DNA from: Renibacterium salmoninarum ATCC 33209
GTDB taxonomy: Bacteria > Actinomycetota > Actinomycetes > Actinomycetales > Micrococcaceae
Assembly (NCBI RefSeq): GCF_000018885.1
Contig: NC_010168.1
Location: 2,976,001 to 3,040,000, forward strand
Reading direction: 5' to 3'
DNA: 64,000 bases
Below the pieces are notes generated by a model. It made no database searches. It was not told the origin of the DNA and saw only the letters and a list, made by a program, of their open reading frames with translations. The first letter of the stretch is position 1, and every line of letters starts with the position of its first letter. The position numbers and the translations under genes were made by a program. Below, piece by piece: positions 5,599 through 60,022 of the stretch.

Positions 5599-5662
5599 GC
5601 CTCCCGCCATACCTGGACATCTCGGTTCGTCACCACCGCTTTGATCCAGTAGAATAGACGGC

Positions 5663-5751
5663 AGCCCCTCGTGTGGCGTCACCCTGTGAAGTCCCCCCAG
5701 GACCGGAAGGTAGCAAGGGTAAGCTGGCTCTGGCGGGTGCACGAGGGGTCC
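5663..5751 (+). ncRNA. ffs: Signal recognition particle RNA, small bacterial type
   Basis: The transcript folds into one long hairpin with closing stem GCCCCTCGTG/CACGAGGGG. The apical region carries the conserved Ffh-binding internal loops and tetraloop (CCAGGACCGGAAGGTAGCA). This matches bacterial 4.5S-type SRP RNA, which with Ffh targets membrane proteins to the translocon. Ends are set from the stem and are approximate. It lies immediately upstream of gluQ. Confidence 0.93.
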
Positions 5752-5770
5752 TTTCATTTTAAGGAGCGTT

Positions 5771-24124: not shown

Positions 24125-24191
24125 CGAAACGCTGCACCACTTTTCGGCCTTAAACAGGTGGTTTAAGGCCGAAAAGTGGTGCAGCGTTTCG
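24125..24191. repeat. Palindromic repeat, copy 1
   Basis: Perfect 31-bp arms flank a five-base AGGTG loop. The core is AACGCTGCACCACTTTTCGG followed by CCTTAAAC and its exact complement. It lies 21 bp after the purL stop and may end its transcript. The same core recurs at 43227, 59962 and, diverged, 50489. Confidence 0.85.
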
Positions 24192-35584: not shown

Positions 35585-35662
35585 TTCTTCCCACTGAGTC
35601 AGCGAGCTCAGTGGGAAGAAATGACTATGTCCCACCGAGTTCGCTGACTCAGTGGGACATAG
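35585..35662. repeat. Double palindrome between convergent genes
   Basis: Palindrome A (35585-35620) has arms TTCTTCCCACTGAG / CTCAGTGGGAAGAA. Palindrome B (35625-35662) has arms CTATGTCCCAC / GTGGGACATAG. B's interior (CGAGTTCGCTGACTC) is nearly the reverse complement of A's (GAGTCAGCGAGCTC), so the four arms can also pair across. It lies between convergent genes and probably terminates both. Confidence 0.75.
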
Positions 35663-42435: not shown

Positions 42436-43230
42436 ATGGCACACGAAGAACCGCGCAAAGCGGCAGATATTGAATGTTGGCTCACCGATATGGACGGCGT
42501 TCTCGTCCATGAAAACCAGGCAGTCCCTGGTGCTTCGGAGCTGATTCAACGGTGGGTGGATACCTCAAAGCGGTTCTTGGTGCTCACCAATAATTCGATT
42601 TACACACCGCGCGATCTTCGTGCTCGATTGCGCGCCTCCGGCTTGGAGATTCCGGAAGAGAACATTTGGACGTCAGCACTAGCTACCGCGGAATTCCTCA
42701 AATCGCAGATGCCGGCAGGCAAGGCATTTGTGATTGGCGAGGCGGGATTGACCACGGCGCTGCATGAGGCCGGGTTCATCCTCACCGACCAGAATCCGGA
42801 CTACGTGGTGCTGGGCGAAACACGGAATTATTCTTTTGAAGCCATCACTCAGGCGATTCGCTTGATCGGTGACGGCGCCCGGTTCATTGCCACCAATCCG
42901 GATGCCACCGGCCCGTCGAAAGAGGGACCAATGCCAGCTACCGGCGCGATTGCGGCCTTGATCACTAAAGCGACTAATCGTGAACCGTACATTGTTGGCA
43001 AGCCCAATCCGATGATGTTCCGCTCCGCGATGAACCAGATCGAGGCGCATTCAGAGACCACAGCGATGATCGGTGACCGAATGGACACTGACATCATCGC
43101 GGGTATGGAAGCTGGACTGCACACGGTGCTGGTAATGACTGGAATTACCCAGCCTGGCGACGTAGATACCTTCCCCTTCCGCCCCGATCAGACACTCGAT
43201 TCGGTAGCGGACCTCATCCCACTCATCTAA
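42436..43230 (+). CDS. HAD-IIA family phosphatase (NagD-like)
   Basis: A 264-residue haloacid-dehalogenase phosphatase. Motif I is LTDMDGVLVHE near residue 20, motif II VLTNNS, motif III Lys in VGKPNPMMF, and motif IV MIGDRMDTDI. Type IIA cap proteins dephosphorylate sugar phosphates and nucleotides; the substrate is unknown. I take the ATG at 42436. The gene is divergent from the methylase. Its TAA lies inside a 103-bp palindrome. Confidence 0.9.
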   Translation: MAHEEPRKAADIECWLTDMDGVLVHENQAVPGASELIQRWVDTSKRFLVLTNNSIYTPRDLRARLRASGLEIPEENIWTSALATAEFLKSQMPAGKAFVIGEAGLTTALHEAGFILTDQNPDYVVLGETRNYSFEAITQAIRLIGDGARFIATNPDATGPSKEGPMPATGAIAALITKATNREPYIVGKPNPMMFRSAMNQIEAHSETTAMIGDRMDTDIIAGMEAGLHTVLVMTGITQPGDVDTFPFRPDQTLDSVADLIPLI

Positions 43231-43329
43231 ACCAGCCCTCCACCGCAAACGCTGCACCACTTTTCGGCCTTAAACAGCCGGTTTAAGGCCGAAAAGTGGT
43301 GCAGCGTTTGCGGTGGAGGGCTGGTTTAG
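43227..43329. repeat. 103-bp perfect palindrome (palindromic repeat, copy 2) at convergent gene ends
   Basis: Perfect 49-bp arms surround a five-base loop AGCCG. The stop codons of the HAD gene (43228-43230) and the hexosaminidase gene (43326-43328) lie near the two ends, mirrored. The core equals copies at 24125 and 59962; the perfect pairing extends about 18 bp further out than in copy 1. Confidence 0.9.
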
Positions 43330-44902
43330 CTTCTTGAGCTCCAGGGAATGTCCGCGGCTTTGTTGTAACCGATACCCAGCACGTCCCAACGTTTGGAATG
43401 CGCCAGGGTGCGCTGAACAAGATCCTGGTAACCGGCGTCAGAACTGCGGTCTACTGAGGGGCTCCAGCCAAGTTCGGCAACTGCAGGAAGCCGTGGGAAA
43501 AGCATGAAATCGGTGTAATCCTTGGCAGAGGCGTAAAGACGAGTTGGCCCAAAAGGCTGATCACCAAATTGATTGGCGCTATCACTCCACAACGATGCTT
43601 CGACGCCGAGCACCGTCGTCGGCTCCCAATTCCAGGCTGTCCGAAGGTTGATGAGGCCAGCCCAGCGCCGTCCATAAGCCGTTGCGGCGTCGTACTTCAT
43701 GTCCAAATAGGACCGGTTTGCCGGCGAGAGGATCAATTGATGCCCGGAATCGACGGCTTTCCTCGCCATTGCGGCGTCCGCGGATCCCGGCTCGGTCCCC
43801 CAATACTGCATCACGGCGCCATCCGGCAGTGCTGCACCTTTGATCCACTCGTGCCAAGCGATCACGGTCTTGCCGGCCGCAGTAGCTGCCTCATTCGCCA
43901 GCGCGGTGTACGCGGTGTACTGCTCTGCAGTGGCCTTAGGCGATTCGTCACCACCAACGTGCAGATAGCGTCCAGGGTTTTGCGCGGCCACCTCGTTCAG
44001 CACCGAGGTGAGGAAGATTTTGACTTGGTCTCGATGCGGCTGATCCTGCAATCCCACCAACGAGATGCCGACGTCGAAGCCTGAGTAGGGTGCAATGGCT
44101 CGACCGTCATTGTTGATCTCAGGCACCGATGCCAGTGCAGCCGAAGTATGTCCGGGACCATCAACCTCCGGCACAATCTCAACAAACCGGCTTGCCGCGT
44201 AACTGATGAGCTCGGCGTACTGGGCCTTGCTGTAAAACCAGGGCCCACCGCCAGCAACCGGATCAACAGTTCCCGGCGCAAAGCCACTCTGTGTGCTGGC
44301 CCCGGTCTTGGTCAATTCCGGATAGGCCTCGATGGCGATGCGCCAGCCTTGATCATCGGTAAGGTGCAAATGCAAAATATTGAGTTTTTAAAGCGCCATC
44401 TGATCGATAACCCGCTTGATAGCCGCCAGCGGCACAAAACGCCGAGCCGGATCCAACATCAGCGAACGGTAGCCAAATCTGGGCGAATCCGTGATTTCAA
44501 CCGTCGCAGCAATTAATCCGGTTGTCACTGCTCGGCCAGATTCTAGCTGCCAAGGCAGTAACTGACGCAGCGTTTGGACGGCACGAAACGCGCCTTCGGC
44601 ACCGGCCGCCCCGGTACGGCAACCTCCAGCGACTTGCCTAGCGCTGGCTCCAAGAGCTGCGTTAGGTAGTCCGCCACGGGTTTGAGCTCTTGCTTCGAAA
44701 CGATCCGGGTCTTTGCCGACAGCGCAAACCCAGCCCCCTTGCCCCAGTGAACCTTTTGCGGCACCGGGATCAGCGCTGGCTGCGGCGCCGAACTTTCTAC
44801 TGCCGCAGCCGAACCTGCTGGAACAACCGTGCCCAGCAGCACCGCCGCTGAGCCGACCGCTAAACCACTCAAGAGCTTTCGTCGTGAAGGATCTGGCACC
44901 AT
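43326..44902 (-). pseudogene. Broken secreted beta-N-acetylhexosaminidase (GH20)
   Basis: A GH20 enzyme of about 520 residues releasing terminal GlcNAc/GalNAc. The N-terminus has a twin-arginine-like signal (SRRKLLSGLAVGSAAVLLG) from ATG 44902. The first part breaks by frameshift near 44545-44560. The second part reaches TAA at 44388-44390 within the highly conserved LHLHLTDDQGWRI approach, where Tyr or Cys would be expected. The catalytic core in the third part is intact, with YLHVGGDESPK (Asp-Glu pair) and GVEASLWSD. At least two lesions make it dead. It ends at the 103-bp palindrome. Confidence 0.83.
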
Positions 44903-50381: not shown

Positions 50382-50488
50382 AGCAGAAAAAACAGCACGG
50401 TGCCCCCATCAGGTCATCGTTGACTTTATCTGATCGTAATCACAACATATTGCTCAAGATAAATCAATAGCTGGCTACTCCATGACAA

Positions 50489-50545
50489 CACTGCACCACT
50501 TTTGGTCACTATTAAGCACTCATAACCTCGAAAAGTGGTGCAGCG
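50489..50545. repeat. Diverged palindromic repeat, copy 3
   Basis: Outer arms CACTGCACCACTTTT and AAAAGTGGTGCAG match the palindrome core, but the 27-base interior (GGTCACTATTAAGCACTCA onward) is different and does not form the CCTTAAAC stem. It lies between the divergent GH31 and ROK genes, unlike the others, which lie after stop codons. Confidence 0.6.
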
Positions 50546-50624
50546 TTTCGCAAATGGGGTGTTGCGTTGATCACATTCTGGTGTACCTTGTTTTAATCGA
50601 TAGGTAAGTTTCCAGACGATTGAT

Positions 50625-59961: not shown

Positions 59962-60022
59962 AACGCTGCACCACTTTTGGGCCTTAAACAGGCTGTTTAA
60001 GGCCCAAAAGTGGTGCAGCGTT
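59962..60022. repeat. Palindromic repeat, copy 4, at convergent gene ends
   Basis: Perfect 28-bp arms around AGGCT. It differs from copies 1 and 2 at TTTTGGGCC/GGCCCAAAA, where the others have TTTTCGGCC/GGCCGAAAA, so the change occurs on both arms and pairing is kept. It lies after the TetR stop and 13 bp before the ManD stop. Confidence 0.85.

Follow-up and report, generated by a model that had tools for sequence, protein, structure and literature searches.

The 103-bp palindrome at positions 43227..43329 of the window (the whole stretch of 64,000 nucleotides that was analysed, bases 2976001-3040000 of the 3,155,250-bp contig of Renibacterium salmoninarum ATCC 33209) is, on balance, most likely a signal that stops transcription in both directions, with arms that would have been lengthened into both neighbouring gene ends by a copying error. 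This reading is drawn from the sequence. The palindrome belongs to a family of 39 copies, each of which we predict, with reasonably good confidence, to be a hairpin terminator or 3′-end former that works without a U-tract and would serve both genes when it lies in a convergent spacer. One hairpin would suffice for two convergent genes because both strands of a palindrome present the same sequence, and it is the placement of the copies, together with their symmetry, that points to a two-way 3′-end signal.

The palindrome and the gene ends within it

The left arm (43227..43275, plus strand) and the right arm (43281..43329, minus strand) are 49 nt long, 100% complementary, and separated by the 5-nt loop AGCCG (43276..43280), as had been stated in a preliminary description of this DNA. 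The mirrored stop codons noted there were found as well. The TAA of a HAD-family hydrolase gene (42436..43230, plus strand; PF13344, PF13242), whose start was placed at the ATG opening the region conserved in relatives, occupies 43228-43230, and the TAA of a GH20 hexosaminidase occupies 43326-43328 on the minus strand, each of them one base inside the palindrome end. The hexosaminidase stop closes a C-terminal open frame (43326..44375, minus strand; PF00728) that is interrupted upstream. We also observed that the gene as a whole is split (minus strand, 43326-44902), with the N-terminal part in a separate frame (44543-44902; PF02838), while in relatives the hexosaminidase is a single long open frame of 594-595 aa.

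According to whole-genome searches and alignment, the core of the palindrome (43245..43311) is common to the 38 other family copies of the genome. The outer 18 bp on the left (43227..43244), containing the HAD stop codon, and the outer 18 bp on the right (43312..43329), containing that of the hexosaminidase, are private to the window copy, as judged from BLAST and the reading frames. In the whole-genome BLAST, the first 7 bases of the query were covered at this place only, which bears out the earlier claim that the outer arm is restricted to the locus.

The predicted RNA fold of the 103-bp palindrome reached -101.1 kcal/mol, compared with a mean of -32.0 in 200 dinucleotide shuffles, none of which equalled the native value. 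The palindrome score, defined as the stem minus twice the mismatches, was 48; in letter-shuffled sequences of 400, 400 and 464 kb, one palindrome scored at least 14 (score 15). Rfam 15 at gathering score placed no RNA family over the palindrome, and its sole match in the window was a small SRP RNA (RF00169, 57.5 bits) at 5660-5756 on the plus strand.

The family and its placement

Whole-genome searches and a script run on the fetched copies gave 39 copies with two arms, characterised by the outer motif ACGCTGCACCACTTTT, membership being defined by at most 2 mismatches per arm. Three half-copies were also found by motif, two of which, with 2 mismatches, may be fortuitous. The 103-bp palindrome has the longest arms of the 39. 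Within the window, it is accompanied by a copy with 31-bp perfect arms at 24125..24191, one with 30-bp perfect arms at 59962..60022, and a degraded one (9 unpaired positions) at 50484..50550, between genes called divergent. The inner arm occurs as the subclasses CGGCC, GGGCC, GGTCG, GGTTG, CGGGC and others, and the two arms of one copy match each other despite these differences between copies. On the alignment of the 39 copies, 95.5% of the 1124 cells of the 29-pair helix are paired. Cells changed on both sides number 106, against 42.6 in shuffles (0/500 as high), although these cells are not independent events and the subclasses alone explain much of the count. G-U changes on one side only are infrequent, with 13 cells against 51 unpaired ones. 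Such a scarcity is expected, since a G-U pair in one transcript is a C-A in the opposite transcript; it fits both strands mattering as well as arms copied from each other as DNA, alternatives between which the data do not discriminate.

Nearly all copies stand at gene ends. An incoming stop codon lies within 50 bp of the core motif in 36 of the 39 copies and within 31 bp in 35, and none of the 39 lies inside a called gene. The gene calls were our own open frames scored by codon use, with rough start sites. By these calls, 19 copies have convergent surroundings, 15 tandem and 3 divergent, and 2 have one side uncalled. Of the 37 callable copies, 19 lie in convergent spacers, an enrichment over the 73 convergent cases among 423 adjacent gene pairs in 464 kb (P = 2e-6). 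Moreover, all 15 tandem copies are found 6-50 bp behind the upstream stop, whatever the distance to the next gene. Two of the three divergent-spacer copies are the most unpaired of the family (9 positions each, one via a one-base indel), whereas the third is well paired.

The family provides a stable hairpin behind gene ends, as an intrinsic (Rho-independent) terminator would. The T-run after the stem is absent: a terminator scan found 0 sites, and on average T makes up 3.5 of the 9 nt beginning at the stem end (both sides, 39 copies). For lack of a T-run, the copies are not canonical intrinsic terminators. Intrinsic terminators without a U-tract (‘I-shaped’) are known as unrelated single sequences with shorter stems; the present hairpins resemble them in standing right behind the stop codon with no T-run, and differ in that the 39 copies are related in sequence. 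Read towards the hairpin, the 22 nt flanking the core are rich in C and poor in G (C 0.376, G 0.153; on the other strand C 0.374, G 0.132), compared with C 0.281 and G 0.267 at 217 gene ends without a palindrome, and this bias leaves room for Rho. It is weaker at the other palindromes of R. salmoninarum and of its close relative Psychromicrobium silvestre (G003), and slight in the congener G006. In tandem copies, the C-rich, G-poor flank was also seen on the side without an incoming gene (C 0.312, G 0.152).

The family is confined to R. salmoninarum among the genomes searched. BLAST (E 0.001) gave no match in 58 other genomes, ranging from genus to order, and the motif with at most 1 mismatch was absent from 6 congeners, compared with 39 + 39 matches in R. 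salmoninarum and 0 for the reversed control. No copy was found in the plasmids and phages searched, nor in viral contigs with an exact 20-base motif, and a plasmid or phage origin was rejected on these searches, whose collections may omit records near the R. salmoninarum genome. Within the chromosome, seven neighbouring pairs of copies lie less than 2.1 kb apart, where 0.97 would be expected. The inner arm is the same in some close pairs (1201654/1203249, 1041858/1042551) and different in others. The close pairs include G000:1201654/1203249, 249374/250244, 823333/824128 and four more, and several flank one called gene.

Arm extension and the corresponding gene ends in congeners

The preliminary description held that perfect pairing had spread beyond the core, and the family agrees with this. 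In five of the 39 copies, the pairing continues past the core AA/TT for 4 bases or more, where a chance of 1/4 per base would give 0.15 such copies (P = 5e-7); the extension measures 20 bases in the window copy and 14 in the copy at 752866. With these five set aside, pairing in the flanks of the remaining 34 does not exceed that of shuffled partners, an absence of excess that is biased downward because the five were picked by their extension. With only the two longest removed, there is a weak excess of pairing in the nearest 5 bases (P = 0.03). From the flanks of the 34 copies, we conclude that extension happened as a discrete event and in few of the copies; on the same ground, the notion of decayed longer arms as a general property of the family was rejected.

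Gene conversion between the arms had been proposed as a cause. We recast the mechanism as quasi-palindrome template switching, which is known from E. coli and yeast (in the cited parts of PMC7202029 and PMC3820800). The 18-bp arm extension is probably best explained in this way. The replicating strand would fold back at the hairpin, copy the opposite flank and then switch back, by which the arms would lengthen from about 31 to 49 bp and take in both stop codons. Arms that are perfect beyond the ancestral repeat, the mark of such an event, are indeed present. In the cited parts of these reports, inverted repeats become more perfect through template switching in E. coli (PMC7202029), and in yeast the identity between arms is extended by it (PMC3820800). 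The likeness lies in inverted-repeat arms made identical and extended; the reporters there underwent small changes, whereas here a natural extension of 18 bp would have to be accounted for. The sequence of the left palindrome end (ATCTAAACC) is matched by that at the end of the HAD gene in P. silvestre; for the right one (CTAAACCAGC, minus strand), the match is with the end of the G006 hexosaminidase. Since the two sides resemble different relatives, either arm may have been the template.

Palindromes were surveyed in 464 kb of R. salmoninarum, 400 kb each of P. silvestre and G006, and 200 kb each of four other genomes. In both congeners, gene ends are occupied by other palindromes (400 kb each). 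Among the 104 reciprocal best hits with P. silvestre, a palindrome was found at the 3′ end in both species in 9 cases, in R. salmoninarum only in 5, in the other species only in 3, and in neither in 87 (P = 1.4e-7). The 139 reciprocal best hits with G006 gave 6, 10, 16 and 107, respectively, which is a weak association (P = 0.02). The P values of both tables are somewhat too small, since two genes sharing one palindrome are counted twice. Where the R. salmoninarum palindrome scores at least 17, 7 of 10 gene ends have a palindrome in P. silvestre, all of other sequence as judged by eye, and 3 of 11 have one in G006, of which two look related to that of R. salmoninarum and one is different. For palindromes of all families, convergent spacers hold 12 of the 27 outside called genes in R. 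salmoninarum (P = 9e-4) and 14 of 24 in G006 (P = 6e-5); in P. silvestre, the excess is not significant (6 of 18, P = 0.12).

Three of the family copies in the window have orthologous sites. P. silvestre carries other palindromes at 3/3, while G006 has one short palindrome, none at the HAD gene, and one hairpin below threshold (by eye). Downstream of the HAD stop, at a distance of 55 bp, P. silvestre carries a palindrome of its own. In G006, where the two genes overlap at their ends, there is no palindrome, meaning that the element was either gained in the R. salmoninarum lineage or lost in G006. Since G006 has both genes, with overlapping stops, the element is not needed there. We count this against the terminator reading, together with the missing T-run, the non-significant convergent excess in P. 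silvestre and the 3 of 39 copies between divergent genes, one of them well paired.

A broader picture can be offered tentatively, as a possibility that we would not call probable. The gene-end palindrome families of the genus may evolve in concert within each species, the site being kept between species and the sequence replaced by the species’ own family. A copying process would then spread the family and keep its arms matched, and the 103-bp palindrome would be a snapshot of its overrun into two genes.

Alternatives, known systems and other palindromes

A REP- or MITE-like mobile palindrome, spreading by itself, merely tolerated behind stop codons and terminating nothing, would account for one sequence family private to R. 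salmoninarum among the genomes searched, for the clustering of copies (7 gaps below 2.1 kb against 0.97 expected) with the same inner arm in some pairs, and for the absence of the element at the orthologous site in G006. Nevertheless, such an element is an unlikely explanation, albeit one with an appreciable chance of being right: all 15 tandem copies keep close to the stop upstream of them rather than to the next gene, convergent spacers are preferred, and gene ends with a palindrome often bear another one in P. silvestre. In addition, no partner transposase was found, and there were no copies in the viral contigs, plasmids and phages searched. A Y1 transposase (Y1_Tnp) was detected in R. salmoninarum at one locus, 113.5-113.8 kb, in two pieces in different frames, and none was detected in P. 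silvestre or G006; a RAYT/REP partnership, which calls for an intact Y1 transposase, was rejected on this basis. The locus fits the transposase gene near msa1 of ATCC 33209 described in the cited part of PMC5320689. DUF222 proteins were also rejected as partners, with 3 matches in R. salmoninarum, 3 in G006 and none in the palindrome-bearing P. silvestre.

The helix is long, stable and directly behind the stop codon, as would suit an mRNA 3′ stabiliser or a site of RNase III processing, with termination at some other place; RNase III is known to act on long perfect RNA duplexes. We consider this very improbable, given that a preference for convergent spacers would follow from termination more readily than from stability alone. 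A signal at the DNA level, either a protein-binding site or a DNA-uptake-like sequence occurring as inverted pairs at gene ends, would make sense of an outer arm conserved far beyond the needs of a hairpin and of the few G-U pairs (13 cells against 51 unpaired), which are expected if DNA or both strands matter. DNA uptake sequences mostly occur singly, however, with inverted pairs in the minority, and here 3 lone half-copies (2 with 2 mismatches) face 39 pairs, that is 78 paired arms. The inner arm, moreover, varies freely provided that pairing holds, and the DNA-level signal is improbable on both counts, even if the species dialects of a second palindrome family (see below) recall those of Neisseriaceae uptake sequences (cited part of PMC3630211). 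Chimeric reads can yield perfect inverted repeats, yet indirect evidence makes an assembly artefact hardly credible: the core turns up at 38 further places with different flanks, similar palindromes exist in other genomes of the genus, and 103 bp fits one read with both gene ends remaining in frame.

The proposed two-way 3′-end signal with overgrown arms may also be compared with known systems. Dispersed intergenic palindromes are a known kind, to which the family belongs in the broad sense, with its 39 related copies and none inside a called gene. The family itself appears to be undescribed: no description was found in the literature searched, outside which lies the 2008 R. salmoninarum genome paper, which may mention the family. 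REP/BIME, ERIC and other stem-loop repeats, as treated in the cited part of a survey of 40 genomes for dispersed stem-loop repeat families (PMC2267715), are likewise intergenic, multicopy, foldable and species-restricted, whereas the arms here are near-perfect, symmetric and about 28-31 bp long, up to 49 bp. The same part of PMC2267715 mentions terminators made of inverted DNA uptake sequences. These resemble our family in that one sequence family recurs as gene-end hairpins, and differ in that the half-unit here is hardly ever alone and the inner arm is variable. In R. salmoninarum, a 91-bp perfect palindrome behind msa has already been published (PMC5320689, in the part cited). The species is the same, but that palindrome has two gene-linked copies, in contrast to the dispersed family reported here, and, compared by coordinates, no copy of the 39-copy family lies at the msa positions given in the cited part of that paper.

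What had looked like a single odd palindrome becomes a testable set: 39 hairpins of natural origin and related sequence, located behind genes and graded in arm length and decay, to which a congener adds palindromes of its own at some of these sites. The set permits direct tests of long palindromes ending transcription both ways without a U-tract, of repeat families taking over gene ends, and of natural palindrome growth via template switching.

In terms of length, the palindrome had been hinted to be exceptional, and this was upheld in part. The 464 kb of R. salmoninarum contain 17 palindromes with perfect arms of at least 20 bp and a loop of at most 12, among which it ranks second; it is not the longest, as the perfect palindromes above 80 bp measure 130, 103 and 81 bp. 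Nor is it singular, being one of a 39-copy family in a genome that holds a longer palindrome. The longest one, of 130 bp with 60-bp arms and a 10-nt loop, lies outside the window at G000:2826903-2827032 (locus L230). It represents another family (GATAGC...), its arms seem to run ~26 bp beyond the shared part, and a called gene ends at its left edge.

Clustering yielded multi-copy families in R. salmoninarum, P. silvestre and G006 only, and no palindrome family of at least 2 copies in 200 kb each of G005, G026, G030 and G036, though a motif search gives many copies in G005. These belong to the second palindrome family (GAGTGTSGASWTSTG, at most 1 mismatch), which has 29+29 copies in R. salmoninarum, 42+50 in P. 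silvestre and 20+31 in G005, and few or none in G001, G002, G004 and G006 (0 to 4 per strand, at about the level of the reversed control). The spacing is a constant 40 bp in the listed pairs inspected, with a different dialect per species. A common origin of the 39-copy family with this second family (GAGTG...) is not claimed: the GGTCG subclass agreed with one copy at 14/24 positions in register (shuffle fractions 0.0013-0.006) in pairs picked after looking, and other comparisons between the two families inside R. salmoninarum gave 9-11 of 24 (shuffle fractions 0.036-0.57). Finally, a double palindrome (TCCCACTGAGTCAGCGA...) was observed behind a gene at 35589-35657 of the window, and a similar palindrome stands behind the orthologous gene in G006, so that this one, unlike the 39-copy family, is conserved between species.
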